Positions 1 to 12,037 of a DNA stretch of 12,037 bases are shown in pieces. Location of the stretch: positions 1 to 12,037 of the forward strand of contig JAUIKP010000045.1 of NCBI GenBank assembly GCA_030430725.1, in the 5' to 3' direction. Origin of the DNA: Nitrospiria bacterium. Its GTDB lineage: Bacteria > Nitrospirota > Nitrospiria > Nitrospirales > UBA8639. The position numbers were made by a program, and so were the translations under genes. The notes beneath the pieces are model-generated. The model saw only the letters and a program-made list of their open reading frames with translations, made no database searches and was not told the DNA's origin. How positions within the stretch are numbered: the first letter of the stretch is position 1; every line of letters begins with the position of its first letter.

Positions 1-200
1 GCCACCACCGTGATTTTTTGATGAGGAGCCCCGAGGCAATCCGCCCGGTCTAAGGTGTGTTGCAACATCGACCGGTTTCCCACGAATGTACAGTACTGTT
101 TAGGTTTGGGATAGCCTAACCATCGTTGAATAAAGGGACGCGTGCGTTCCCCCTCCCCACCGGCGAGAATTATAGACCATAAGGCATGGGATTGAGACAT
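1..200 (-). CDS. sugar-phosphate nucleotidyltransferase, mannose-1-phosphate guanylyltransferase-like (5' part only)
   Basis: Only the first 66 codons are in the window; the gene runs off the left edge. The N-terminus has the nucleotide-binding signature of the GT-A type nucleotidyltransferases, LAGGEGERTRP at residues 12-22, followed by PKPKQYC (31-37), where the lysine and glutamine lie at the usual substrate-contact region, and SMLQHTLDRA further on. Enzymes with this start join a sugar 1-phosphate to a nucleotide (typically GTP plus mannose 1-phosphate giving GDP-mannose) in the cytosol, feeding polysaccharide or glycoconjugate synthesis. The ATG at 200 is supported by AAGGAG nine bases upstream. 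A tripartite operator and -10-like hexamer (266-332) lie in front of it, so it is probably co-regulated with the signalling genes. The family is clear; the exact sugar and nucleotide cannot be set from this fragment. Confidence 0.85.
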   Translation of the reverse strand, partial: MSQSHALWSIILAGGEGERTRPFIQRWLGYPKPKQYCTFVGNRSMLQHTLDRADCLGAPHQKITVV

Positions 201-265
201 AGGGCGGAACTCCTTCCTTTGCACGAAAAAATTGTATAAAAGCTATGAATATACTTACGCGGTCT

Positions 266-332
266 TGTATATCGAGAAAGAAATGAGACGGATACTAGGG
301 ATTTTCCTAGAATGCCAAGAAAATTTCCCTAG
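266..332 (-). promoter_or_regulatory. operator copy A and promoter of the nucleotidyltransferase gene
   Basis: Read on the gene strand: distal half-site CTAGGGA (332-326), 15 bases, CTAGGAA (310-304), two bases, TCCCTAG (301-295), 23 bases, then TATACA (271-266) as a -10-like hexamer. The inferred transcript start is near 259, placing the palindrome centre about 43 bases upstream of it and leaving a leader of about 60 bases. There is no good -35 box, which fits an activator-dependent promoter. The arrangement repeats in copies B and C. The pattern is seen directly; activator binding is inference. The rest of the 323-base gap 201-523 shows no gene. Confidence 0.6.
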
Positions 333-523
333 GGTTCTGCTAGGATTCTGATGGATGTCCGAATCAAAATACCGAGTCGATGCCTCTTCCTCAGTCATCC
401 CCCCGTCGTGAGCGAAGACACCTCTTCGGGGGAGAGTAAAAAAAGGATTCTTCATTAACTATGTCAGATTTTCGGCGTGGGGATAAGGACCCGATTACAA
501 CTGTCGAGCCAAACAAACAGGCT

Positions 524-760
524 TTAAGCAGGCAACTGGGGCCTTTCAGAATCCTCGGACAAAATCTCCCTTGCGGCTTTCAACCAACTGGCTAAACTCG
601 GGCCACTATGCTCACCTCCCCGCTGGGAGATCTCATGGGCACGATGGTCAATCTTGGTCTTCAGCGAACCATCAGGTATCCTGTCCTGATTTTCATCGAC
701 AGAAACCGGCAGACATTGCATTTCTGCCTGTTTGTCGAACATGCATGAAATGTTTTTCAT
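524..760 (-). CDS. DUF2934-like small protein
   Basis: A 78-residue protein. Residues about 36-68 (KIDHRAHEISQRGGEH, then SLASWLKAAREIL) resemble the short DUF2934 domain, whose members carry an RAxEIxxxRGxxHG...WLxAExEL pattern. The function of that family is unknown to me. The N-terminal 35 residues contain two cysteines (6 and 16) and no recognisable motif. The ATG at 760 is strongly supported by GGAGG eight bases upstream. It stands alone between the cysteine protein gene and the operator region of the nucleotidyltransferase gene, on the same strand. A 7-bp inverted repeat (788-811) precedes it. There is no signal peptide or membrane segment, so it is probably cytosolic. Confidence 0.75.
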   Translation of the reverse strand: MKNISCMFDKQAEMQCLPVSVDENQDRIPDGSLKTKIDHRAHEISQRGGEHSGPSLASWLKAAREILSEDSERPQLPA

Positions 761-787
761 TGAATCAACCTCCGCCTTGTATGGCCT

Positions 788-811
788 TGATATCAGTTCA
801 GCTCGATATCA
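788..811. promoter_or_regulatory. inverted repeat TGATATC-N10-GATATCA upstream of the DUF2934-like gene
   Basis: Two perfect 7-base arms, each containing the palindrome GATATC, are centred 17 bases apart and lie 28 bases before the start codon at 760. Position and symmetry suit an operator or a leader hairpin. No known binding protein is recognised. Confidence 0.3.
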
Positions 812-1044
812 TTTCAAGACAGATGAGCAGAAAACGGACGTGCTCCTTCCTGCGACGATCAAACCGAATTGAACGCTCATGGATGAAGACATATCAAATC
901 GTTCAAAACAGCCAGGTGGTCTGTTGCGACCAACACAGCGCACGCTTATCTTTGGCACATGCAACGTCGAGAAGCATACGAAGCGTCACAGACCTTTACC
1001 TTTCTTCTATAGGACCCAGGGGATGACCTGCATCTCAACCGATT

Positions 1045-1215
1045 TCATGCTTCCACCGGTTTATGAATGACCTCACCACATTCCCGACAGACAAGACTCC
1101 CTGTTTTCTCGCCTTGATGATTGACATGTTCGTCCAGGAGACGTTGATGGGCGCAGACGCCCCTCCTCCCGTCGACAAGAGTTCCATTCACACGACCGGC
1201 CTCATGTTCATCCAT
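1045..1215 (-). CDS. 56-residue cysteine-rich protein with a CxH...CxxC motif
   Basis: Starts at the ATG at 1215, behind a purine-rich AAGGGCGGGG stretch, and ends at TGA (1045-1047). Residues CAH (21-23) and CREC (43-46) give a CxH plus CxxC arrangement with a linker rich in H, D and E (HQRLLDEHVNHQGEK), as in small zinc-ribbon proteins. Two other short CxxC proteins occur in this window (7919-8110 and the C-terminus of 11531-11914), so such proteins appear common in this genome. It is cytosolic by composition, with no signal peptide. The function is unknown. The coding call rests on the ribosome-binding site, the ordered cysteine pattern and the lack of a better frame. A second in-frame ATG lies at codon 4 on no better signal only if frame is ignored, so 1215 is preferred. 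Confidence 0.55.
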   Translation of the reverse strand: MDEHEAGRVNGTLVDGRRGVCAHQRLLDEHVNHQGEKTGSLVCRECGEVIHKPVEA

Positions 1216-1291
1216 GCGCCCCGCCCTTTCTGAAAAATACCCAATCCCTCATGTGACAATCCATCAGCTCTAACCGGCATTCCGTCTTTCA

Positions 1292-2332
1292 TCAAGCCAC
1301 ATGGAAACGAGAGGAGGCCTCTACCTTGACCTCATCGTTTTGAAAGATCTTATGGCAGACTTGTTGAACAGTGGCCAAATGAACCGGTTTGAGGAAAAAT
1401 CCTTGAGCGCCTTCCTGCAACATCCGCCGGAGCAATCGCTCCTCGGCCCCGCCCGACATCATCAGCACCGGCATCTGATGTCCCAACCATCGCAGTTCAT
1501 CCAACATGGTCCGCCCATCCATAATGGGCATGTGCAGATCCAGTACAATTCCATCCACGCAACGGCCGTCCAACAGATCCAGGCCCTCCCGCCCATTTCT
1601 CGCAATAAGCACTTCATATCCCCATTCCTGAAGGGCCTGATCCAACAACCGGGAGATGGAAGGATCATCATCGACCACCAACAAACAGGGACGGACTTCC
1701 AGGGCCTCGGTCCCGGCACGCGACACACCCCGCGATGTGGCTTGGAGCGCTTGAAGAATTTCCAGACAGGAAGGGCAATAGGTTTGTGTAGGCTCGATAT
1801 CGGAGAATGTGAGTTGATGGCTTGACAAATATGCATCCAAAACCTGCCAGTCATCTGTTCCGGCAAGCCCCTCAGAGGAGGGATCGTGAACCCGTTCGCA
1901 CCAGGCACAGGAAAACACGAATTGGGAGGTAGGCGAAGATAACGAGAGGCTATGCCGTAAGACATCTCTCCGGGAAATGACTCCGACAAGCTGCCGATCA
2001 CGAACCACAGGCATCCTCAGAACTTGGCTGTGAACCATCCCCGTCATCACGACATCGAGCGGATCCTGCTCAAACACATATACCGGGGTAATCATCGTGT
2101 CCTCGACCCTAAGTTCATCCAGGGAATTCACGCGTGCACAGGCTTGTAACAGACGGAGTTCGGTCACGACCCCCAAAATTTCTCCAGTGGAATCGACCAC
2201 CGGCCATCCGCTGTATTGACCGGAAAGAAATTGCAAAACCAGACCGTTCTCAAAGCGGCCGGGTCGAAGAGGAACGGCTGCGGTGTCCATCAAATCTTCC
2301 GCCAACGGAGAAGAGGGAAAAAGGTGGTTCAT
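1292..2332 (-). CDS. CBS-domain pair, four-cysteine linker and receiver-domain fusion protein
   Basis: A 346-residue soluble protein in three parts. Residues about 10-130 form a tandem CBS pair (AEDLMDTAAVPL..., GWPVVDSTGEILGVVTE, then VEDTMITPVYVF..., RMPVVRDRQLVGVISRRDVL), a fold that usually senses adenine nucleotides. Residues 142-189 carry CAWC (142-145) and CPSC (186-189) around a W..L.AYL stretch, a pattern that recurs in bacterial signalling proteins and could bind a metal. Residues about 215-331 are a CheY-like receiver with acidic pocket DDD (221-223), phospho-acceptor D265 in VLDLHMP, S293 and K315. No DNA-binding or catalytic output domain is present. ATG 2332 has GAGG seven bases upstream and keeps the whole first CBS domain. 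Operator copy B lies in front. It may link energy state to phosphorelay signalling from the neighbouring kinase; that role is inference. Confidence 0.88.
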   Translation of the reverse strand: MNHLFPSSPLAEDLMDTAAVPLRPGRFENGLVLQFLSGQYSGWPVVDSTGEILGVVTELRLLQACARVNSLDELRVEDTMITPVYVFEQDPLDVVMTGMVHSQVLRMPVVRDRQLVGVISRRDVLRHSLSLSSPTSQFVFSCAWCERVHDPSSEGLAGTDDWQVLDAYLSSHQLTFSDIEPTQTYCPSCLEILQALQATSRGVSRAGTEALEVRPCLLVVDDDPSISRLLDQALQEWGYEVLIARNGREGLDLLDGRCVDGIVLDLHMPIMDGRTMLDELRWLGHQMPVLMMSGGAEERLLRRMLQEGAQGFFLKPVHLATVQQVCHKIFQNDEVKVEASSRFHVA

Positions 2333-2352
2333 CCGAGGACCTCACTTTCACT

Positions 2353-2374
2353 ATGGTTTCAACCATGAAACCAT
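2353..2374 (-). other. leader hairpin of the CBS-receiver gene
   Basis: ATGGTTTCA and TGAAACCAT are perfect 9-base arms around a 4-base loop, ending 21 bases before the start codon at 2332. The left arm can also pair within itself (ATGGTT with AACCAT), so two folds compete. It lies inside the leader inferred from operator copy B (start near 2404). It could modulate translation or be a protein-binding site. Confidence 0.4.
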
Positions 2375-2410
2375 CAGAATTACGGGGGATTGTGCCGCGA
2401 CGCTGAGAGG

Positions 2411-2477
2411 AACCTACCGAATCGAGGCAAAAAAAAGAACTAGGGAAATCCCTAGTTCTTTCCGGAAAACATCCTAG
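2411..2477 (-). promoter_or_regulatory. operator copy B and promoter of the CBS-receiver gene
   Basis: On the gene strand: distal half-site CTAGGAT (2477-2471), 15 bases, then CTAGGGA-TT-TCCCTAG (2455-2440), 23 bases, and TAGGTT (2416-2411) as a weak -10-like hexamer. The palindrome is the most perfect of the three: the symmetry extends to 13-base arms (2434-2461). Spacing from distal half to palindrome equals that in copies A and C. The -10 match is poor, so the promoter part is less sure than the operator. Confidence 0.55.
2429..2461 (-). terminator. Rho-independent terminator of the 2509-3201 regulator gene
   Basis: On the minus strand a stem AAAGAACTAGGGA / TCCCTAGTTCTTT closes around TT (functionally a 4-base loop) and is followed directly by eight T residues (2436-2429). 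It begins about 48 bases after the TAG stop of the response-regulator gene. The same bases form operator copy B. Confidence 0.65.
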
Positions 2478-2508
2478 AGATGAAGGGGGGAGAGATGATC
2501 GGAATCGT

Positions 2509-3201
2509 CTACTTCTCAACCAGGCCATGAGCAACCGCAAATTGGGTCAACTCTGGAATGGTATGCATCCTTAACGTTTCTATGACCTTGGCTTTATGAA
2601 ATTCCACCGTCTTGGTGGAAATATTGAGTAGGCTGGCTATGGCTTTGATGGAATGCCCCTCCGCAATCAGCTGCAAGACTTCCCGTTGACGAGGGGTAAG
2701 CTGGCTCAAAATCGGTCTCCCCATTCCTTGTGAGTTCGGAGGGGAAATATCCCTTCGCAAAACTAATGGGGTAACATACGTGTGGCCGGCCAACACCGTT
2801 TGCACAGCCTGCTTGAGTTCCGATCCGGCAGACCGTTTTAATAGATAGCCGGAAGCCCCGGCCTCGAACGCCGCGGTAATATAGGAGGAATCTCCATGCA
2901 TCGTCAGAAAAATAATTTTACAGTGAGGAATAAGTTTTTGGAGATGGCGAGCGGACTCCAGACCGTTTAAACTCGGCATGGAAATATCCATCACCACCAC
3001 ATCCGGGTTCAGATGTGGAGCGATATGGAGTAACGCTCGTCCATCTTCCACCTTTCCCACGACCTCAGCGAACTCCTCCACAAGCCTTGCCACCCCTTCC
3101 AGAACCATGGGATGATCATCCGCCAACACAATACGGGGAAGGTTCCTTGAGGATTTCCCTGCACATGAGCTCGAATAAGGAGGTGAGAGCGGCACCGGCA
3201 T
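2509..3201 (-). CDS. NarL/LuxR-family response regulator (first of two paralogues)
   Basis: A 230-residue DNA-binding response regulator. The receiver domain (about 23-140) has DD at 28-29, phospho-acceptor D72 in VVMDISMP, a switch threonine in FLTMH and lysine in LLKRSA. The C-terminal LuxR-type helix-turn-helix (about 165-228) begins LTPRQREVLQLIAEGHS and has recognition region NISTKTVEFHKAKV. The start is set at ATG 3201 because AGGAGG stands six bases before it; a TTG at 3219 would put that site inside the gene. A 22-residue leader rich in P and S precedes the receiver domain. Its promoter (copy C) carries the tripartite operator and a consensus TATAAT, so the gene may be autoregulated. 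It closely resembles the regulator encoded at 3330-3974, with shared blocks such as VGKVEDGRALL. The input kinase is probably the one at 4177-6981. Confidence 0.93.
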   Translation of the reverse strand: MPVPLSPPYSSSCAGKSSRNLPRIVLADDHPMVLEGVARLVEEFAEVVGKVEDGRALLHIAPHLNPDVVVMDISMPSLNGLESARHLQKLIPHCKIIFLTMHGDSSYITAAFEAGASGYLLKRSAGSELKQAVQTVLAGHTYVTPLVLRRDISPPNSQGMGRPILSQLTPRQREVLQLIAEGHSIKAIASLLNISTKTVEFHKAKVIETLRMHTIPELTQFAVAHGLVEK

Positions 3202-3242
3202 CTTGATCCTCCTGAACAATTTTACGCGCTTAGGTGGGAGGT

Positions 3243-3308
3243 ATTATATACAAGCGCGAACAAATCGACACCAGGGAAATCCCTAGTTCCCGACAGAAAC
3301 ATCCCTGG
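3243..3308 (-). promoter_or_regulatory. operator copy C and promoter of the 2509-3201 regulator gene
   Basis: On the gene strand: distal half-site CCAGGGA (3308-3302), 15 bases, CTAGGGA-TT-TCCCTGG (3286-3271), 22 bases, then a perfect TATAAT (3248-3243). The inferred start is near 3236, so the palindrome is centred about 42 bases upstream, overlapping where a -35 box would be; no TTGACA-like hexamer is present. This is the clearest of the three promoters and the anchor for the class II activator interpretation. Confidence 0.68.
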
Positions 3309-3329
3309 CCAAAATCATTCGCCACTCTG

Positions 3330-3974
3330 TTATTCCGGAGACACGAGACCATGGGTAATGGCATACCTTGTTAATTCCGCCGTGCTTTGACAATTCAACT
3401 CCCGGATTATTTTGGCTCGATGAAATTCAATGGTTTTTGGGGATACATGCAACATCGTCGCAATCTCTTTGGTACTGTGACCTTCGGCGATGAGTTGAAG
3501 CACTTCCCGCTGCCGTGGCGTTAGAGAATGATCCTCAGCTTTAGGAGCCGCCATTTCATGAGTAAGGGTACCCAGAAAATCTTTGGCAATGGCCGGAGTC
3601 ACATAGTACTGCCCTTTCATCACCGCATGGATCGCTTGCATTAACTCTGAAGCCGCGGAACGCTTTAAAAGAAAACCGGACGCCCCGATTTGAAAGGCTT
3701 CCTTCGCATACAAAGGATCCGCATGCATGGTCAGAAAAATCAGCTTGATTGACGGAAGCAACTTTTTGAGTTGACGCCCGGCATCCAAGCCATTCAATTT
3801 GGGCATTGAAATATCAAGGACGATCACATCCGGTTCCAGCTTCCGGGCAGCCTGTAGAAGGGCCCGTCCATCCTCTACTTTCCCGACAAGGTCACAATCG
3901 TCCGTGACCAGTTTCGCCAGACCTTCCAGAACCAATGCATGGTCATCGGCTAATAATACTCGAGTTCGAGTCAC
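3330..3974 (-). CDS. NarL/LuxR-family response regulator (second paralogue)
   Basis: A 214-residue regulator of standard length. The receiver domain has DD (10-11), phospho-acceptor D54 in VLDISMP, T82 and K104. A linker of about 25 residues leads to the LuxR-type helix-turn-helix, LTPRQREVLQLIAEGHS, with recognition region HVSPKTIEFHRAKI, nearly the same as in the neighbouring paralogue. The start is GTG at 3974, the first usable start after an in-frame TAG; an AGGA lies 11 bases upstream, a rather long spacing, so translation may be modest. The gene lies 202 bases downstream of the kinase gene on the same strand and is its most likely partner. The similar recognition helices suggest both paralogues read the same operator family, which is inference. 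Confidence 0.92.
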   Translation of the reverse strand: MTRTRVLLADDHALVLEGLAKLVTDDCDLVGKVEDGRALLQAARKLEPDVIVLDISMPKLNGLDAGRQLKKLLPSIKLIFLTMHADPLYAKEAFQIGASGFLLKRSAASELMQAIHAVMKGQYYVTPAIAKDFLGTLTHEMAAPKAEDHSLTPRQREVLQLIAEGHSTKEIATMLHVSPKTIEFHRAKIIRELNCQSTAELTRYAITHGLVSPE

Positions 3975-4176
3975 CAGGGATCTTGTCCTATGCTATTGAT
4001 GAGCGGCCATCACCTTGACCATAAAGACATTCCTGCCCCTTTCCCTGCCCTGCCCTTCCAACTTCATCACCTGCCCCTCATTCCCGGCAACCGGTCATTG
4101 AAAGGTAACCATAAGGAACGGGGAATCCAACTATGCTGACACCTGGGGTTACGAGCCGATCTTTGCCCCCCAGCAA

Positions 4177-6981
4177 TCATGTTTGGTCGCGGCCCGGTAT
4201 TGAGACCGTCACGGTGGTGCCACGGCCAGGCTGACTCTCCACCGACAAGATCCCACCCACCAGACGAGCCCGCTCTCTCATGTTGACAAATCCCAAGCCG
4301 TGGGAAAGAAGTCCGTCCACCTCAAATCCCACTCCATTGTCGTGAATGGAGAGAATAATGTCCTGCCCGTCCTTTCTCAAAACGAGATGGACGGCCGTGG
4401 CCTGAGCATGCCTTGAAACATTTTGCAAGCTCTCCTGTGCTATCCGGTACAGACACGTGGCCACGGCCTGAGAGAATGTTCGTGCCTCCTCAGTCACCTC
4501 TTGCGTAACGGACACCCCTTTCCACTTCGTAAAGTCTTCGCATAACGAACGAAGAGCCGGTCCCAAACCCAGATCATCGAGAATCGACGGGTGATATTGG
4601 TAAGCTAAATGCCGAACATCATCGGACAGATTGGCGACGCTTTCAAAGAGCTCCTGGATCATTGGCGTAACGAGGTGCGCATCCGACAGGCCGTCACGCG
4701 CAGCTTGCAGCTTCAAACTCAGAAGCGCAAGCCGTTGATTCACATCATCGTGCAGATCACGGGAAATACGCCGACGCTCCTCCTCCTGCGCCGTCAAGAG
4801 TCGGGCAGCCAATGAGCGAAGCTCCTGCTGTTGAATTTCCAGGCGCTGAGAGGCTTCCTGAAGAATGATTTCCGCTTGTTTTCTTTGGGTAATATCCGTG
4901 GAAATTCCACAGAGTGCATAAGGTTTTCCTGTGGGAGTCGTCAACAAAAATTTAAACACATGTTCGGTGTGCTTTCCATCAGCACGATCCGATATTTCAT
5001 CGGATTCATGGGCCTGCCCGGTTTGAAGAATGGTTTGGTCAATTTCCCGAAATCGCGAAGCCCGGTCGAAGGGAAAAATTTCTGTATCAGTTTTGCCCAA
5101 AATCTCCTTCTCGGACAGACCCGTATTTTTTTCGAACTGCCGATTGACCTTCAGATACCGACCCTCAAGATCTTTGAGCCATATGGAGATCGGACTATGA
5201 TCAAGAATTGCCTGAAGCTGCTCTTTGCTCTGTTGAAGCAGCTGTTCTGCCTTCTTGCGGGCGGTAATATCCGTTCCTGTCGCAATAAAAAATTTCACTT
5301 TACCTTTTTCATCAGGGATGGCAGTGGTTTCCCAATGAATCCAAGTCGGTTGACGCGATTGGTTCACGAGGGCTGATTCAAACAAGGGAGGCAGCCGTCC
5401 CGCCTGGCAAGAATCGATAATTTCCCTGGTTCCTTGATCGTCCTCCCCTGAAATGACAAAAAGGTTCACAAACGGTTGTCCCTTTAAGTCTTGGAAAGAG
5501 TCCCTCACAGTCTGTTCACAGGCCCGGTTGATGCGAAGAATCCGCAAATGCGGGTCCAGAATCACCACGAGGGCGCCTGTCGTGTCCAGCACCTGGCTGA
5601 CAAACCTTCGCTCTTTCTCCAGAGCCTCCTGCGCAGCCCGTTGCCTGGTGCGATCAATGCCGGACGCAATCAGGTATTTCACCTCACCGTGTTTATCCCA
5701 CAGCAGGGCATTAGACCAGGCAATCCAGCGCAGTTGCTTCTGTTTGGTGATCCAGAAATTCTCATGAATGTTCGGGGCTTGACCTTGGAGAAATGCTTGA
5801 AAATACGCCTTGACCTCTTCCACGCTACCCGGTGGCAGCACGGTTTCCCAAAAAGGCTTATTCTGGATTTCTTCAGAAGAAAAACCTGTCAGCATTTCAC
5901 AGGCACGATTGAACCGGACGATGTTTCCCTGTGAGTCCGTGACCACAATTAATGCGGCAGTGGTATCTAAAATTGCCGTAATAAATTCCTGCTCTTTCTT
6001 AATCTCATCCCGTGCTTGTCGACGTTCGGTAACATCCCGCAACACCACAATGAATAATTTTCTGGCCCTGCCTTTGCTATGTTCTTGCAATTCCACTTGT
6101 GAAAGGGACGCTTCGATAGGAAATTCTTCCCCGTCAGCTCGTAGTCCAAAAACCTCTCTCGACGCATCCATCCGCCTGGTAGCCTCTGGATTTTGACCGA
6201 ATTGGCGATGGTGGTTATGATGCGCTTCCCGAAACCGTTCAGGAATAAACCGGCTAATCGAATGCCCGAGGGCGCTCGAAGCAGGACAGCGAAACATCGT
6301 CTCGGCGGCCTCGTTAAACAGCACAATCCGTTCATCCTCATCGGTGGCCATGATCGCATCCATCACACCATTCATGACCACCGACATCAAGGCCTCTTGT
6401 GATTTCTGCACGTCTTCCATTCGCTCCAGCATCGTCACATCTTCGACCGCAATTCGGAACCTAGTTGCCAGACCCAATGGCTCCATGCTCTCCAAGCATC
6501 CTTCCAACCGGACTCGATGGATGCTCGCACCATGCCGCAGGGTCAGAATATCGGAAGGCTGAGTGCCGGCCTTTTTTTTCAGCGTTTCCAGATACAGACG
6601 AAACCTCCCCTGGTCCTCCGGTTCCACATATTCTTCAAACCTCTTGTGAATGAGGGTCCGCCGTGGCAGTCCCAGTACATGGCAGAAGGTCAAATTGGTC
6701 TCCAGAATCCGGCCGGTCCCATCGAGCGTGACGTATCCCGCCGGTGTAAAATCAAAGAGGGTGGCATACCGATCACGTGCCAGCCCAAGATCAGCCTGAG
6801 TCCGACGAAGTTCTTCATTTTGCATCTCCAGTTCGTTCTGATGCACTTGGAGTTCATGCACAAGGCGCTGCACTTCCTCAAGCGTCATCTTCTTCACCTG
6901 GGCGCGTGTCACCTGAAGAGCCGTTTCGGCCTTTTGCCGTAAAATATTCTTCCCGGTCGATGGTGTATGTTTTGAACTCAT
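4177..6981 (-). CDS. soluble five-PAS sensor histidine kinase (NarX/DegS-type core)
   Basis: A 934-residue cytosolic kinase with no membrane segment. An N-terminal coiled coil (about 20-65, LVHELQVHQNELEMQNEELRR) is followed by five PAS-type units near 70-185, 193-320, 325-445, 450-575 and 585-700, each ending in a DxT-like PAC tail (VEDVT, LRDVTERR, ASGIDRTRQ, GTDITARKKAE, STDITQRKQAE). The core is HisKA_3 type: phospho-acceptor H744 in ISRDLHDDVNQ, N-box around N854 (RIAQESLQNVSRHA), G1 box DNGVGF (881) and G2 box GLGFVNMRER (895). Kinases with this core phosphorylate NarL-type regulators, two of which lie just downstream. The ATG at 6981 has a weak GAGAA site four bases before it. The signal is unknown; several PAS units could bind haem, flavin or small molecules, but no ligand residue can be assigned by eye. 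A decayed kinase lies immediately upstream. Confidence 0.95.
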   Translation of the reverse strand: MSSKHTPSTGKNILRQKAETALQVTRAQVKKMTLEEVQRLVHELQVHQNELEMQNEELRRTQADLGLARDRYATLFDFTPAGYVTLDGTGRILETNLTFCHVLGLPRRTLIHKRFEEYVEPEDQGRFRLYLETLKKKAGTQPSDILTLRHGASIHRVRLEGCLESMEPLGLATRFRIAVEDVTMLERMEDVQKSQEALMSVVMNGVMDAIMATDEDERIVLFNEAAETMFRCPASSALGHSISRFIPERFREAHHNHHRQFGQNPEATRRMDASREVFGLRADGEEFPIEASLSQVELQEHSKGRARKLFIVVLRDVTERRQARDEIKKEQEFITAILDTTAALIVVTDSQGNIVRFNRACEMLTGFSSEEIQNKPFWETVLPPGSVEEVKAYFQAFLQGQAPNIHENFWITKQKQLRWIAWSNALLWDKHGEVKYLIASGIDRTRQRAAQEALEKERRFVSQVLDTTGALVVILDPHLRILRINRACEQTVRDSFQDLKGQPFVNLFVISGEDDQGTREIIDSCQAGRLPPLFESALVNQSRQPTWIHWETTAIPDEKGKVKFFIATGTDITARKKAEQLLQQSKEQLQAILDHSPISIWLKDLEGRYLKVNRQFEKNTGLSEKEILGKTDTEIFPFDRASRFREIDQTILQTGQAHESDEISDRADGKHTEHVFKFLLTTPTGKPYALCGISTDITQRKQAEIILQEASQRLEIQQQELRSLAARLLTAQEEERRRISRDLHDDVNQRLALLSLKLQAARDGLSDAHLVTPMIQELFESVANLSDDVRHLAYQYHPSILDDLGLGPALRSLCEDFTKWKGVSVTQEVTEEARTFSQAVATCLYRIAQESLQNVSRHAQATAVHLVLRKDGQDIILSIHDNGVGFEVDGLLSHGLGFVNMRERARLVGGILSVESQPGRGTTVTVSIPGRDQT

Positions 6982-7019
6982 TGCGTTCTCTTTATGGGCT
7001 AACCCTTCGACTTTAAAAT

Positions 7020-7435
7020 GGTAGGGAGTTGTCTTCCATCACAATTTCATGGCCACAAGCATGACGGGTTGAGTTCACCATACAACAATCCAAGGCCAAT
7101 ACCCAATAATCGGAAAAGCTGAGGGGCGCTCCAACACTCTTCGAAGAATTAGGAAAATCTTGAGCGGGCCTGGAAAGTTGGCAATGGATCGTGATGCGGT
7201 AGAAGGTGTCTTGACGAAATTCAGAGAAACCGCCTTCCTTATAAAAGTGTGTTCCCTCGCCGGAGTTTCGAGTTGTCCTTGGATTTCGCGGGCCTTGTTT
7301 AAGCCGCCATTCTTCCACCGGGATGGAAGTTTTAATCGGTTCCCCGCCCTTGGCAAAGGTCAGGAGTTGCTGAGTCAACGTTTTCGCGCGAAGACAAGTC
7401 TGTGTTGACTGCCCATCCAGATGACTCCCCCTCAC
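7020..7435 (-). pseudogene. remnant of a second histidine kinase
   Basis: The minus strand around 7395-7330 encodes LRAKTLTQQLLTFAKGGEPIK, which matches the end of the dimerisation helix pair in hybrid PAS kinases (usual form LRARDLTQQLLTFSKGG). The expected ATP-binding domain does not follow in one frame. Near the 3' end one frame gives GIGLGL, like a G2 box, and another gives HACGHEIVMEDNS, like the HGGHIxVES segment that normally follows it. This suggests frameshifts plus internal deletion. No receiver domain and no good start are present. An open frame spans 7013-7435 but has no ribosome-binding site and does not fit an intact protein. The LTQQLLTFAKGG match is strong; the downstream frame assignments are tentative. 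Confidence 0.6.
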
Positions 7436-7918
7436 GGCAGCCGGGATGAGGAAGATAAAAGATTGACTTCCTCAATTACTACTGAGAGACGGAAGCCAAT
7501 CATTCGTCACATGGGGATATCTTTCGATTGAGGAAGACTGGGACGACACATTCTGCAGATGTGGGGAAAGATGCCACACTTTCTTTGGGTGTCCATGTCA
7601 CACTTTTCATTGTCACTTTCCATTTTTCAATCACGTCCAGATCTTTTAGCCAATATTTCCTGACCGTTTTCCTCCTAGATCTTCAACGTTTCTTCACTTT
7701 TTCAACACAATACGATTCACTCTTTCCAAACCACTCTCCTGAAACCGTCGGCGTAAGGACCTCAAATCCGTACTTGGCACACAGCTTGAAAGTGCTCTCA
7801 GTTGTGATGGAACCGAAACGGAATTCTGACACAAACCTGTAGGTTGAAGGACTCACATTGAACAATCCACTCATGTATTCTTTCTCTTTAACAACACCAG
7901 GCCTGCAGAGGTGAACTG
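7436..7918. other. gene-poor junction between the minus-strand and plus-strand gene sets
   Basis: The sequence here is more AT-rich than its flanks. It must hold the promoter for the plus-strand genes from 7919, but no convincing -35/-10 pair was seen. Three mutually pairing segments occur near the left end: TGAGGAAG (7447-7454), CTTCCTCAAT (7467-7476) and ATTGAGGAAG (7527-7536). A 63-residue minus-strand frame (7683-7874) resembles nothing I recognise and lacks a good ribosome-binding site. Decayed coding sequence is possible. Confidence 0.4.
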
Positions 7919-8110
7919 ATGGAATGTCCTCGCTGTCATGGGTTGATGGTTATTGATGCCTGTCTGAATCAGGAGGGAGCGAACGAGACTATCTGGGTAC
8001 ATGAATGGCGGTGTCTAAATTGTGGAGAAATCTTTGATTCGCAAACCCTATCCAATCGGAATGGTTGCCGATACAAATCCTCCTCCAAACATGCCCATGA
8101 GGTCGCCTGA
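7919..8110 (+). CDS. small zinc-ribbon protein
   Basis: A 63-residue protein with two CxxC pairs, CPRC (3-6) and CLNC (32-35), separated by an acidic linker and the WVHEWRC stretch. It resembles short zinc-ribbon proteins annotated as hypothetical in Nitrospira-type genomes (MECPRCxGLM...WRCxNCGEIxD). The ATG at 7919 is preceded by GAGGTGA at close spacing, a near-ideal ribosome-binding site. The 28 C-terminal residues are basic and polar with no motif. It is followed 28 bases later by a cytochrome c gene and may be co-transcribed with it. It probably binds zinc structurally; the role is unknown. Confidence 0.75.
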   Translation: MECPRCHGLMVIDACLNQEGANETIWVHEWRCLNCGEIFDSQTLSNRNGCRYKSSSKHAHEVA

Positions 8111-8138
8111 ATGGTTTCAATCACCCAAAGGATATCCA

Positions 8139-8576
8139 ATGAATTATTTGCTTAGTCTTTTCCTACGGAATGGGGGCCTCGCCTTGCTGATTCTGATCAT
8201 GGGAATGAATTCGGGATGGGCTCAGGAACAGGATGTCATAGCCGGAGGGAGGCAGCTCTTTCAAAAATTCTGCGTATCCTGTCATGGGTCCCAGGCCAGG
8301 GGGGACGGTCCACTTTCCGAATCTTTGGAGCCCAAGCCAGCGAATCTGACCAGGTTATCAGCCAAACATGGCGGGTCATTCCCCTTTTGGCACGCGTACC
8401 GCACGATCGATGGACGCAATCACATTCCGAGTCATGGCACGCGTGATATGCCGGTGTTTGGAATATGGTTCCGGATACCGGATGATGAGGTCTCGATTGA
8501 AACGGAGTGGGCCGACCAAGTACGAGGGCGGATCTGGCAACTGTTGTCATATCTGGAATCTATTCAGGAACCATAA
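8139..8576 (+). CDS. periplasmic monoheme cytochrome c (first of two)
   Basis: A 145-residue exported class I cytochrome. The ATG at 8139 gives a clear signal peptide (hydrophobic 12-22, likely cleavage after GWA at 28) and has AAGGA seven bases upstream; longer in-frame starts would bury the signal. Haem is bound through CVSCH (45-49), followed by GSQARGDGPLS as in many small cytochromes. M104 in TRDMPVFG is the likely axial ligand. The domain ends with the usual WQLLSYLESI helix. A WHAYRTIDGRNHIPSH segment before the methionine adds several histidines. It should carry electrons in the periplasm; partner enzymes are not in the window. It lies between a small zinc-ribbon gene and a second cytochrome, probably in one operon. 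Confidence 0.88.
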   Translation: MNYLLSLFLRNGGLALLILIMGMNSGWAQEQDVIAGGRQLFQKFCVSCHGSQARGDGPLSESLEPKPANLTRLSAKHGGSFPFWHAYRTIDGRNHIPSHGTRDMPVFGIWFRIPDDEVSIETEWADQVRGRIWQLLSYLESIQEP

Positions 8577-8652
8577 GAACGAGGATGAAGCTTCTGACCG
8601 TCCGGAGATGACACGTAAACCCATCCCTAAGATAAGCGAGCAGGAGGACATG

Positions 8653-9057
8653 ATGCGTCAACAACACAATTACCGTGGAATTCTCGGCATTCTCCTCATC
8701 ATGGCATGGCCCATTCTGGCGTACAGTCAAGAAGTTCCAGGCAACCCTCAGAATGGGAAAATCCTGTTCGAAAAGCATTGCGCGAATTGTCACGGAGAAA
8801 AAGGAACCGGTGATGGACCTGACACCCAATTCCTGTTGGTGCAGCCCGCGAATTTTCACTCGTTGGAATCACGATCAAAAACGGATTGGGAATTAATGAA
8901 TGTGATCACCTATGGAGCCGTCTTTTCTCCTATGCATGGATGGTCAGAGCGTCTGACGGAAGATGAGCGCTGGGATGTGTTGCGATATATCAGATTCCTT
9001 GCTCCCTTTAATCCCATCGCCAAACACCTTCCTCCTTCAACAGTGAGGCACGGATAA
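8653..9057 (+). CDS. periplasmic monoheme cytochrome c (second of two)
   Basis: A 134-residue exported cytochrome. The start is taken at the second of two adjacent ATGs (8650 and 8653), because AGGAGG at 8642-8647 is five bases before it; either may be used. The signal peptide spans about 8-25 (ILGILLIMAWPILAYS). Haem is bound through CANCH (43-47) with GEKGTGDGP after it, and M94 in FSPMHGW is the likely sixth ligand. The end helix ERWDVLRYIRFLAPF is typical. It differs from the first cytochrome mainly by a shorter middle, so the two may be an old duplication or partners with different potentials. It lies 76 bases downstream of the first cytochrome gene on the same strand. Confidence 0.88.
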   Translation: MRQQHNYRGILGILLIMAWPILAYSQEVPGNPQNGKILFEKHCANCHGEKGTGDGPDTQFLLVQPANFHSLESRSKTDWELMNVITYGAVFSPMHGWSERLTEDERWDVLRYIRFLAPFNPIAKHLPPSTVRHG

Positions 9058-9064
9058 CATCGCG

Positions 9065-9087
9065 ACCACTGTCTCCAGGTCAGTGGT
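9065..9087 (+). terminator. possible weak terminator after the cytochrome pair
   Basis: ACCACTG and CAGTGGT form a perfect 7-base stem around a 9-base loop, eight bases after the second cytochrome's stop. The following GTATCATTCATTTT is T-rich but not a true T-run, so termination would be partial. It could equally be a processing hairpin ahead of the dodecin gene. Confidence 0.3.
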
Positions 9088-9121
9088 GTATCATTCATTT
9101 TCATAGTAAGGAGATTCAGCC

Positions 9122-9325
9122 ATGTCAGACATGTTAAAAGTGATCGAAGTGTTAGCAGAATCAGATAAGAGTTGGGAGGATGCGGCTTCGTACGCCGTGA
9201 CCAAAGCAGCCAAAAGCGTGCACGGCATTAAATCGATTTACATCAAGGACATGGAAGCCAAAGTGGAAAATAACAAGATCACCCAATATCGAATTAACGC
9301 GAACATATCTTTCCTGCTGGATTAG
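9122..9325 (+). CDS. dodecin-family protein lacking the flavin-stacking residues
   Basis: A 67-residue protein with the whole dodecin pattern: KVIEVLAESDKSWEDAA (6-22), KAAKSVHGIKSIYIKDM (28-44), then NKITQYRINANISFLLD. Dodecins assemble into hollow 12-subunit shells, and many store flavin between paired tryptophans with a glutamine contact. Aligned by eye with the Thermus-type sequence (LDWFEVKE ... KEYQVVLEVGF), the tryptophan position is S38 and the glutamine position is R57. It therefore belongs to a divergent dodecin subgroup and may bind another ligand or none. AAGGAG eight bases before ATG 9122 supports the start. It stands alone between the cytochrome operon and an inverted repeat. 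Confidence 0.9.
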   Translation: MSDMLKVIEVLAESDKSWEDAASYAVTKAAKSVHGIKSIYIKDMEAKVENNKITQYRINANISFLLD

Positions 9326-9357
9326 ACAGAAAAGCCAAGCAGAAAGATTCCCACGTT

Positions 9358-9413
9358 TTACCCTGAACCCTTCGGCAAATGTGTACTGCACGCAGTCGAA
9401 GGGTTCAGGGTAA
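9358..9413. repeat. perfect 17-bp inverted repeat, REP-like
   Basis: TTACCCTGAACCCTTCG (9358-9374) is exactly mirrored by CGAAGGGTTCAGGGTAA (9397-9413) with 22 bases between. It begins 32 bases after the dodecin stop. No T-run follows on either strand, so it is not a standard terminator, though it could stabilise the upstream transcript. The CCCTGAACCCTTCG core resembles dispersed intergenic palindromes found in many bacterial genomes. The remaining stretch to 9497 has no gene. Confidence 0.65.
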
Positions 9414-9497
9414 GGTCTACGGAAGGATCTGGTTGAGCCGTGGTCTCGTCAACCCGGGCACCTAGCCTTCAGGAGTAGTTCAGGGTGACCACGGGTT

Positions 9498-9941
9498 ATG
9501 ACACGAATGGACCATCTTGAATCTTCAACAGGATGGGAGCATTTTCCCCATGAGGCGGATATGGGGATTCGCGGTTTTGGAGTCACCAAACCTCAAGCCT
9601 TTGAACAGGCGGCGTTAGCACTGACCGCAGTGATAACGGATCCCCAACAGGTAGACCCTCAGATGGAACGCCATTTCACCTGCGACGCGCCGGATGATGA
9701 GCTGTTACTGGTCGATTGGTTGAATGCCCTCATCTATGAAATGGCGTGCGGGCATGTGATTTTTGGCCGGTTCGACGTCACCATCACAGATCATCACCTT
9801 TCAGCCATTGCCCATGGAGAACCAGTCGATCGTAGCAAACATGAACCAGCCGTAGAAATAAAAGGGGCCACCTATACCGAGTTGGCTGTCCGGCAGATTG
9901 AGGGAAACGGCTGGGTGGCCCAATGTGTCGTGGATGTCTAA
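9498..9941 (+). CDS. archease, RtcB activator
   Basis: A 147-residue archease, about the family length. The start motif HFPHEADMGIRGFG (15-28) carries metal-binding D21, LLVDWLNALIYE (70-81) is the family's central helix, KGATYTELAV (122-131) carries the conserved lysine, and the protein ends in CVVDV with D146. Archease promotes guanylation and repeated turnover of the RNA ligase RtcB, whose gene follows 85 bases downstream, giving strong context support. ATG 9498 has only a distant AGGG; a second ATG at 9507 (codon 4) is a close alternative. The inverted segment CCGTGGTC / GACCACGG flanks the upstream region and might fold over the start. Confidence 0.9.
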   Translation: MTRMDHLESSTGWEHFPHEADMGIRGFGVTKPQAFEQAALALTAVITDPQQVDPQMERHFTCDAPDDELLLVDWLNALIYEMACGHVIFGRFDVTITDHHLSAIAHGEPVDRSKHEPAVEIKGATYTELAVRQIEGNGWVAQCVVDV

Positions 9942-10026
9942 TCCCGTGAGTTGAACATCACATGCATCATCAGCCGGCTCTGACAGCATACTCATTGTTT
10001 CACACTTCTTTCCTGCGACAAACCGT

Positions 10027-11457
10027 ATGGACCTGAACCTCCTATCCCGAGTGTCTGCGTATGAGTGGCACATTCCTCAAAAGGGGACGATGCGCGTGCC
10101 GGGAATTATATATGCGGATGAGTCACTTGTTCGGGACATGGATCTCAAGGTCTATGAGCAGGTCGTCAACGTGGCCACACTCCCGGGAATTGTCCAAGCC
10201 TCGTTTGCCATGCCTGATGCCCACTGGGGTTATGGATTTCCGATAGGCGGAGTCGCCGCCTTCGATCCCCAACAGAACGGAGTGGTTTCTGCCGGCGGTG
10301 TGGGATTTGATATTTCCTGCGGCGTACGGGCCCTCTATACGGGTTTACGTACGGACGATATCACTCCCGTGAAAGAAAAACTTGCCGACCTCTTATTTGC
10401 GCAGGTGCCTGCCGGCGTGGGAAGTACCGGTCGATTGCATCTGAAATCCAAGGAAATGGATAACATGCTTGCCGGAGGCGCCCAATGGGCGGTCCAACAA
10501 GGCTACGGGACCGTAAAAGATTTATCCCGCATTGAAGAACACGGCTGCATGGCCGGAGCCAAACCTGGATGCGTATCTGATCACGCCAAGAAGCGCCAGC
10601 AGGACGAAATGGGCACGTTAGGATCAGGGAATCATTATTTGGAAATTCAGGAGGTCGTGGAAACCTATCACGATCCCTTGTCGGAAAAACTCGGTATCCA
10701 TACCGGGGATATCCTGGTCAGCATTCATTGCGGATCTCGAGGGCTTGGGCATCAAATCGGGACAGAATACCTCAAGAAAATGGTCGAGGCGGCAAGCCGG
10801 TATGGCATTACGTTGCCGGACCGGGAACTGGCCTGTGCTCCGATCGACTCCCCCTTGGGGCAGGAGTATTTAGGGGCGATGCGGGCGGCGATGAATTGCG
10901 CCTTAGCCAACAGGGAAATCGTCACGCATTTGGTGCGTCAAGCCTTTTCGGAAATCTTTCCTCAGACGTCCCTCCCGCTACTCTACGATGTATCACACAA
11001 CACGTGCAAAATGGAGGAACACCAGATCGGCGGCCGGAGTCGGCGCCTCTTTGTCCATCGGAAAGGTGCCACGCGTGCGTTTGGTCCGGGACATGCTTCC
11101 ATCCCTGCCGACCTCCAGGCCTTCGGTCAACCGGTCCTTATCGGTGGCACCATGGGAACAGCCTCCTACCTTCTGGTCGGAACGAAAGAAGGCATGGCTC
11201 TGGCCTATGGATCTGCCTGCCATGGAGCAGGACGCAGTATGAGTCGGCATCAAGCCACCCGCCAATGGAAAGGTCAGAGGGTGATTCAAGAATTAGCGGC
11301 TCACGGGATCTTCATCCGAAGTCCTTCCGCGCGGGGGGTCGCCGAAGAAGCACCGGGGGCCTATAAAGACGTCTCCGCCGTGGTCGATGCGGCTGAACAG
11401 GCGCACCTGGCCCGCAAGGCAGCGAAAATGCGCCCGTTAATTTGTATTAAGGGATAA
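10027..11457 (+). CDS. rtcB: RNA-splicing/repair ligase RtcB
   Basis: A 476-residue GTP- and manganese-dependent RNA ligase joining 2',3'-cyclic phosphate or 3'-phosphate ends to 5'-hydroxyl ends in tRNA or damaged RNA. Family motifs are complete: PDAHWGYGFPIGG (63-75), GVGFDISCGVR with D95 and C98, GSGNHYLE with H203, SIHCGSRG with H234, the SHN histidine (324), HRKGATRAFGPG (344-355), GTMGTASYLL, and SACHGAGR with guanylate acceptor H399. No intein interrupts it. The start at 10027 is chosen by homology (WHIPQKGTMRVPG matches the normal N-terminus), although no Shine-Dalgarno sequence precedes it; an internal ATG at 10090 has AAGGGG upstream but would remove conserved residues. It forms a pair with the archease gene. 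No RtcA cyclase or RtcR regulator gene is in the window. Confidence 0.97.
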   Translation: MDLNLLSRVSAYEWHIPQKGTMRVPGIIYADESLVRDMDLKVYEQVVNVATLPGIVQASFAMPDAHWGYGFPIGGVAAFDPQQNGVVSAGGVGFDISCGVRALYTGLRTDDITPVKEKLADLLFAQVPAGVGSTGRLHLKSKEMDNMLAGGAQWAVQQGYGTVKDLSRIEEHGCMAGAKPGCVSDHAKKRQQDEMGTLGSGNHYLEIQEVVETYHDPLSEKLGIHTGDILVSIHCGSRGLGHQIGTEYLKKMVEAASRYGITLPDRELACAPIDSPLGQEYLGAMRAAMNCALANREIVTHLVRQAFSEIFPQTSLPLLYDVSHNTCKMEEHQIGGRSRRLFVHRKGATRAFGPGHASIPADLQAFGQPVLIGGTMGTASYLLVGTKEGMALAYGSACHGAGRSMSRHQATRQWKGQRVIQELAAHGIFIRSPSARGVAEEAPGAYKDVSAVVDAAEQAHLARKAAKMRPLICIKG

Positions 11458-11530
11458 TCACACGACTAAAACCAGGACGTGCCGTCTGCATCGTTCATCA
11501 ACACAAGCATCCACACAAGGGGAATTTGTT

Positions 11531-11914
11531 ATGGATCACGCACAACGGGAACAGAGTCTTCTCCAGGTCTTGGAAGCCTTCACAAAAGGGTTAACCACCT
11601 TAAAGGAGGCGATTGCCCTGGTCCATTCCGCAAACGATCAACTGCCGGCAGGGGAACCACGAAAAGCCATACAACAAAAGATTGAAGAAGCCGAACGGAC
11701 AATCCAGGTTGGTCATGCGGCCATGGGGCAATCTCTGGGCTTTCAACTCTGTCACTGCACATGGCCCCCTCAGGTGATGGCCAGCAGCCACTATTCGAAC
11801 GAAACACAGGTTGAACAATTCACCTGTCCAAATTGCGGGAGAACCCTTTCTCTTCCCGGTCGGCAGGCCCCGGGGACGGCAATGACCGCCTTCGACCCTT
11901 ATGATGTGTATTAA
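11531..11914 (+). CDS. uncharacterised protein with helical N-terminus and C-terminal four-cysteine motif
   Basis: A 127-residue protein. Residues 1-65 are predicted helical by their heptad-like leucines and alternating charge (EQSLLQVLEAFTKGL, KIEEAERTIQVGH). The C-terminal part has CHC (74-76) and CPNC (99-102), likely a zinc ribbon, with TWPPQVM after the first pair. The ATG at 11531 is preceded by AAGGGGA at eight bases. It lies 73 bases after rtcB on the same strand and before a PEP-synthase-like gene, so an operon with rtcB is possible but not shown. The function is unknown. The cysteine layout with CxCxxPPQxM resembles hypothetical proteins found in similar bacteria. Confidence 0.75.
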   Translation: MDHAQREQSLLQVLEAFTKGLTTLKEAIALVHSANDQLPAGEPRKAIQQKIEEAERTIQVGHAAMGQSLGFQLCHCTWPPQVMASSHYSNETQVEQFTCPNCGRTLSLPGRQAPGTAMTAFDPYDVY

Positions 11915-11959
11915 GGGGAATGCCTCTTTACTGGTTTTCCAATATAAAAAAGGAACGTC

Positions 11960-12037
11960 ATGGGTATGAAATCCCCTGCCTCATCACCTGAATCCTACAT
12001 CCTCTGGTTTAAAGAAATTGGCCTACAGGATATCAGT
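11960..12037 (+). CDS. ppsA: phosphoenolpyruvate synthase-like protein (5' end only)
   Basis: The first 26 codons are present, reading MGMKSPASSPESYILWFKEI then GLQDIS, and the gene leaves the window. PEP synthases begin with a close match, YxxWFxEIGxxDVxLVGGKNASLGEM, so this is probably the N-terminus of the ATP-binding (pyruvate, water dikinase) domain, making phosphoenolpyruvate from pyruvate and ATP. AGGA five bases before ATG 11960 supports the start; ATG 11966 is an alternative. With only 26 residues, and before the GGKNASLGE motif, the identification is probable rather than certain. Confidence 0.65.
   Translation, partial: MGMKSPASSPESYILWFKEIGLQDIS

Follow-up and report, generated by a model that had tools for sequence, protein, structure and literature searches.

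A 12,037-nucleotide stretch of DNA from a Nitrospiria bacterium (order Nitrospirales; contig JAUIKP010000045.1, positions 1 to 12,037; hereafter the window) carries three exact minus-strand copies of a 38-base tripartite element, CYAGGRW-N15-CTAGGRA-WW-TCCCTRG. We regard this element as a putative operator which, judging from sequence comparison, quite probably belongs to the adjacent two-component system, a histidine kinase (HK) and a NarL/LuxR-type response regulator (RR) here called RR1. Copy A spans 295..332, with a distal half-site CTAGGGA (332-326), a T tract and a proximal 7-2-7 palindrome (310-295), and copies B and C span 2440..2477 and 3271..3308; an initial annotation of the same DNA had given these coordinates and this strand. 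The genes concerned are also on the minus strand. Copy A precedes the 5´ part of a nucleotidyltransferase gene (3..224, likely start ATG near 200), copy B the gene for a protein with CBS and receiver domains assigned by Pfam (1292..2332), and copy C the gene for RR2 (2509..3219), a paralogous NarL-type RR that shares the Pfam domains Response_reg and GerE with RR1 (3330..3974). Upstream of RR1 lies the kinase (4177..6981), for which Pfam finds several PAS domains and HisKA_3. The initial annotation held that these three targets share one operator, a view supported by conservation, spacing and target orthology.

The copies are more than a compositional accident. The palindrome alone (at most three mismatches) occurs three times in the window, a number reached in none of 200 dinucleotide shuffles (mean 0.12). 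With the reversed pattern as the control for genome scans, the full pattern has four matches at up to two mismatches in the organism's own genome (3.52 Mb, 83% complete; control 0) and seven at up to three (control 1), and all four of the palindromes found there at up to one mismatch are accompanied by the half-site. The fourth site (G000:C242:12027-12064) lies on contig C242, the end of which is window positions 1-127 and which carries the remainder of the copy A nucleotidyltransferase; the contigs therefore adjoin, and the four sites form one chromosomal neighborhood. Its order is PAS kinase, RR1, site C, RR2, site B, CBS-receiver gene, site A, nucleotidyltransferase 1, a DUF2934 gene, a SpoIIAA-like gene, the fourth site and nucleotidyltransferase 2.

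The initial annotation called the operator tripartite, and the three half-sites are indeed present; they are better read, we think, as a tandem pair of NarL-type dimer sites spaced by 22 bp, a strong proximal 7-2-7 site and a weak distal one. The proximal site, two inverted heptamers with a 2-base gap (CTAGGRA-WW-TYCCTAG), is found in copies A-C and at 40 sites of the window's genus, where the distal site consists of one good heptamer and a degenerate TTTYC inner arm. When sites were selected by the palindrome alone (at most one mismatch) in the 15 regulator-bearing genomes of the genus, 33 of the 40 palindromes had a direct heptamer (at most one mismatch) exactly 22 bases upstream, and any other offset from 8 to 52 had a heptamer at no more than 4 of the 40. 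The fixed 22-base spacing noticed in the three window copies is thus real, and it equals the distance between dimer centers in a BvgA-like tandem array.

Regions of the genus around matches to the tripartite pattern yielded 43 aligned rows, representing 42 distinct sites with at most three mismatches. The spacer initially written as N15 proved not to be free, since T occupies positions 10, 11 and 12 in 42, 41 and 38 of the 43 rows and positions 13-14 are mostly pyrimidine. The palindrome also extends outward, with A at position 22 in 31 rows and T at position 39 in 40. A weight matrix was built from 41 sites, leaving out an opposite-strand reading in genome G019 and a weak site in G003 (L059:7373). 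The training sites score 32.7-56.1 bits, copies A, B and C among them scoring 46.5, 50.9 and 44.1, and the best score in the control was 10.0 in 738,441 bases from 49 loci (L136-L184), mostly of other phyla and including two Nitrospira contigs. Within the window nothing besides A, B and C scores above 4.2, so the kinase-RR1 operon seems to lack autoregulation through the element.

Within the genus, presence of the element is associated with presence of the regulators. The genome set comprised 97 genomes, the organism's own included, 20 of which belong to the window's genus. The tripartite pattern (at most two mismatches) was found in 20 of the 97, 14 of them in the genus, against a single match of the reversed control. 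RR1/RR2-type regulators (at least 57% identity) are encoded in 15 of the 20 genus genomes, the best match in the other five being 36-37%. Fourteen of the 15 regulator-bearing genomes have the tripartite pattern versus none of the five others (Fisher p 0.0004, relatedness ignored); a NarL/LuxR-type RR is encoded and co-occurs with the site. The palindrome at up to one mismatch numbers 40 in the 15 regulator-bearing genomes (control 8; 1-5 per genome) and 5 in the five regulator-lacking ones (control 4).

The genes behind the sites are few in kind. Listing them, as the initial annotation had suggested, showed that 40 of the 42 distinct sites precede a same-strand gene of a small number of families, the match beginning at most 126 bases away; the reference families for this count were themselves chosen from such downstream genes. 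They encode nucleotidyltransferases (13), RR2 (8), CBS-receiver proteins (7), a weakly PAS-like protein (7), Cu/Zn superoxide dismutase (2), receiver-only proteins (2) and an RR1-like protein in the RR2 position (1). Both the copy A site and its gene have orthologues in G016, and six weaker sites in G004, G005 and G012 (12.7-39.5 bits), outside the 43 rows, all precede genes of the same families. The two superoxide dismutase genes preceded by an operator (G009 and G017; L052:8022-8059 and L071:446-483) lie near cytochrome c genes. Three further sites were considered separately. The G023 site has no recognized target, the best RR1 match of that genome being 37%, and the G080 site (L022), with no related gene nearby, was counted as chance; the target of the G031 site, some 600 bases off, is unclear, although that genome has RR1 (67%) and RR2 homologues.

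The two NarL-type regulators are the candidate binders. We consider RR1 the likelier of the two, since outside the genus the element remains behind homologues of RR1 while the downstream genes differ. A relaxed pattern occurs in 56 of 235 genomes of the order (control 2); because TT at positions 10 and 11 is part of this pattern, it says nothing on whether the T tract is conserved beyond the genus. Of the 51 sites that it lists outside the genus, surroundings were inspected for 28 newly fetched ones and, in addition, for five earlier ones (L023, L024, L025, L027 and L041). At 18 of the 28 new loci and at three of the five earlier ones (L024, L025 and L041), an RR1 homologue immediately precedes the site, no more than about 240 bases away and in the same direction; these homologues have 56-65% identity, apart from one fragment at 51%. 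Downstream genes vary, from receiver-only genes to porin-like genes without a Pfam match and genes leading to an outer-membrane efflux protein. Mostly in Nitrospira records, a diverged block with the same geometry stands behind an RR1 homologue at 14 of 19 loci inspected, and the pattern derived from it was found in 22 of the 235 genomes, all of genus g12 (control 0).

It is rather unlikely that RR2, or a mixture of RR1 and RR2, is the main binder and that RR1 merely feeds RR2, although the recognition helix of RR2 is nearly identical to that of RR1 and RR2 sits between two copies. Operators persist in genomes G013 and G003, which have no close RR2, and the other genera have porin-like, receiver-only or efflux-linked genes, and no full RR2, behind the RR1 homologue and the element. 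In G013 (99% complete) the sole close homologue is RR1, at 85% (the next, at 49%, resembles a paralogue found in several genomes), and operators are retained before the nucleotidyltransferase and PAS-like genes. With its similar helix, RR2 may also bind the same operator. The helix KT(I/V)EFH(R/K) is found in nearly all RR1 homologues of the genera with CTAGGGA half-sites. By NCBIfam models RR1 is not a NarL orthologue, scoring 121.6 bits against the NarL model (cut-off 250); its best model, MctR, also stays below the cut-off (178.8 bits, cut-off 300). The kinase at 4177-6981 is, by position, the likely partner of RR1. It has about five PAS domains and a hydropathy maximum of 1.28 over 19 residues, so it is probably soluble, without a clear membrane segment, and an internal redox or gas signal is plausible.

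We propose a model in which RR1 is the principal binder. The PAS kinase would phosphorylate RR1, one dimer of which would occupy the strong 7-2-7 palindrome near -42.5, in place of a -35 box. A second dimer, aided by contacts with the first, would occupy the weaker upstream site, 22 bp off on the same face of the DNA. Both dimers would recruit RNA polymerase, activating RR2, the CBS-receiver gene and the nucleotidyltransferases; the action of RR1 on RR2 would create a cascade, and RR2 might then occupy the same sites and reinforce the response.

The class II activator position envisaged in the initial annotation finds support at the RR2 and receiver promoters. In the 43 rows TANNNT peaks at element positions 61 (7 rows), 62 (11) and 65 (7, all PAS-like), with no other position from 40 to 129 above 4. 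The 18 rows with the hexamer at 61 or 62 belong to RR2 (7), CBS-receiver (7), receiver-only (2), superoxide dismutase (1) and RR1-like (1) genes. If this hexamer is taken as -12 to -7, the palindrome center would fall at -42.5 or -43.5 in these 18 of the 43 rows, the class II range being about 41.5-43.5 bases upstream of the start. A -10-like hexamer had been described for all three window copies, and it was recovered at two: TATAAT at copy C (3243..3248, minus strand, counted from 3308; element positions 61-66), which would by the same reckoning place the center at -42.5, and TAGGTT at copy B. In copy A, element positions 52-74 contain no TANNNT, and inspection by eye gives only TATACA; at the nucleotidyltransferase promoters letters resembling TATAAG stand at 62, again by eye. 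No -35 box was seen by eye at these promoters.

A palindrome lying over the -35 region of promoters without a visible -35 box is also compatible with occlusion, in which a dimer at -42.5 would block RNA polymerase until a signal relieves it. We hold such a repressor distinctly unlikely: a fixed distance between site center and hexamer, combined with the lack of a -35 box, is the usual mark of activation. NarL, as described in PMC7419079, activates from -44.5, and the proximal BvgA dimer, in the account of PMC7250471, abuts the -35 region.

Several observations weigh against activation by RR1 through a uniform element. Seven of the 40 genus palindromes lack the heptamer at offset 22: CTAGGAT stands at 20 in one (G004) and CTAGTGG in another (G012), three retain the T tract only, and the remaining two are in G001. 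The distal site would thus be dispensable at some promoters, and since all seven still precede a receiver-type (5) or nucleotidyltransferase (2) gene, the proximal palindrome appears to be constant and the distal site optional. Both misses among the 42 distinct sites are two extra G003 sites without a convincing target. TANNNT at 61 or 62 is absent from all 13 nucleotidyltransferase and all 7 PAS-like rows. A distant orthologue of the PAS-like gene lacks a site in the regulator-bearing genomes G001, G004, G005 and G012. The five regulator-lacking genomes may be one clade, which would make the co-occurrence an association and not a set of independent events. Two rows labeled RR1 have other helices, KTVDFH and KTVQFH. 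Outside the genus, no RR1 homologue lies within reach of the site at 10 of the 28 new loci, of which one is on a short contig. The g12 sites lie directly behind an RR1 homologue in 25 of 26 cases (two of these homologues being fragments), a figure that partly restates conservation because the g12 pattern was built from sequence behind RR1 homologues, and the diverged-block pattern gave no further targets in g12.

Alternatively, the palindromes might not be operators and might serve the genes upstream as intrinsic terminators or RNA hairpins. Directly behind RR2, copy B (window 2430-2460) can form a hairpin of -18.9 kcal/mol with a T run after it, and hairpins of -16 to -19 kcal/mol with a T run occur at six of the eight CBS-receiver-class sites, copy B included, and at one of the two receiver-only sites, that of G002, in the same place behind RR2. 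We find this very improbable as a general explanation. No stable hairpin with a comparable T run is present in the classes of RR2, nucleotidyltransferase, PAS-like and superoxide dismutase genes (at one nucleotidyltransferase site, in G005, 8 of 12 bases are T, but the hairpin is weak), and the upstream heptamer, the T tract and the 22-base spacing, which recur across classes, are needed by no terminator. The terminator reading was accordingly retained only for copy B and its class, where the two readings overlap and the sequences suggest that the same DNA is doubly used, as operator and as terminator, at the CBS-receiver promoter. That the copies are a mobile or REP-like family, as several near-identical palindromes per genome might hint, is hardly credible, since only 1-5 are present per regulator-bearing genome and their placement at orthologous promoters, in one orientation towards the gene, contradicts it.

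BvgA is a NarL-family RR, the consensus heptamer of NarL itself is TACYYMT, which the element heptamer CTAGGRA does not match, and the box of mycobacterial DevR/DosR differs in sequence from the element. The closest geometry appears to be that of BvgA of Bordetella, which, according to PMC7250471, forms head-to-head dimers every 22 bp on one face of the DNA, the most promoter-proximal one abutting the -35 region. The 22-bp spacing of dimer centers is shared, strong BvgA sites have an inverted heptad, and the primary site at Pfha has a TTCCTA arm in common with the TTCCTAG versions of the element. The differences are that the strong site at Pfha is the furthest upstream whereas here it is the proximal one, and that the heptamers of the element, CTAGGRA, leave a gap of 2 bases; RR1 is not known to be an orthologue of BvgA. 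NarL dimers of Escherichia coli bind 16-bp inverted heptamers with a 2-base gap (PMC4549865), the 7-2-7 form of the element, but the NarL heptamer quoted in that source, TACCCCT, differs, and at ogt NarL activates from sites centered at -44.5 and -77.5, 33 bp apart versus 22 here (PMC7419079). The element would thus work like a NarL site but, judged by its letters, is not one. For DevR/DosR, a NarL-subfamily regulator, PMC3029386 describes binding to a primary site and then, cooperatively, to an adjacent secondary one, as proposed here. In Bacillus subtilis the ComA site, which earlier studies cited in PMC4797271 termed tripartite, likewise pairs an inverted repeat with a more degenerate element needed for activation by ComA; according to that source the additional element forms a direct repeat (RE3/RE4) with a 5-nt spacer, and the optimal gap of the inverted repeat is 4 nt. 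The parts of the system are therefore of known kinds, and the operator word, the regulon and the order-wide placement behind RR1 seem to be undescribed as far as a limited search of the open-access literature can tell. That search found nothing relevant to the operator; PMC8510549 deals with CRP/FNR regulons in a microbiome with Nitrospira and not with this operator.

Half-site and recognition helix may have drifted together across the order. In RR1 of the Nitrospira block the helix reads KT(V/I)EYHK in 12 of 12 cases read, and the half-sites are TTAGGCA, TTAGGTA or CTAGGCA. Genus g12 also has CTAGGGA half-sites, and the covariation is only suggestive. In some Nitrospira records the upstream site is nearly palindromic, and at L124 it is a full palindrome with a 3-base gap, as expected if the distal site also binds a dimer. 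We offer, as a tentative and somewhat doubtful extension, that an HK-RR module is shared across the whole order Nitrospirales and that this element is its ancestral output port. The element would stay fixed behind RR1 as the downstream gene changes, and its half-site letters would shift with the helix: EFH goes with CTAGGGA in the genus of the window, in g19 and in others, and EYH goes with TTAGGCA and its variants in Nitrospira. Activator binding and termination could in addition be coupled at the CBS-receiver promoters.

A few further observations concern these loci and their surroundings. Behind the operator at many of the 26 g12 loci (L305-L330) there is an overlapping 7-2-7 dyad, TGTGCCT-TA-TGGCACA, with a TTGCTAAGTATTAG-like stretch; they are perhaps a third site or the promoter. 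Two diverged sites of Nitrospira sp. CG24A (L110:4766-4803 and L110:5020-5057; 31.7 and 19.0 bits) stand before a kinase and not behind RR1; the RR1 homologue of this organism has 60% identity. Beside the signaling cluster, window positions 8022-11457 hold cytochrome c genes followed by an archease-RtcB pair, and relatives of the archease and cytochrome c genes recur beside the cluster in G018, G009, G013 and G003. Inverted CCCTGAAC...GTTCAGGG repeats, REP-like by eye, occupy 9360-9490, between a small open reading frame (ORF) and the archease gene.

Most Nitrospirales have not been cultured, and little is known about how they regulate their genes. A defined operator, a likely regulator and a short list of targets would make one two-component system of this order predictable from sequence, and existing metatranscriptomes could be searched for the signal of the system. 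For the DNA-binding specificity of the NarL family, the drift of half-site and helix across the order would offer a natural data set.

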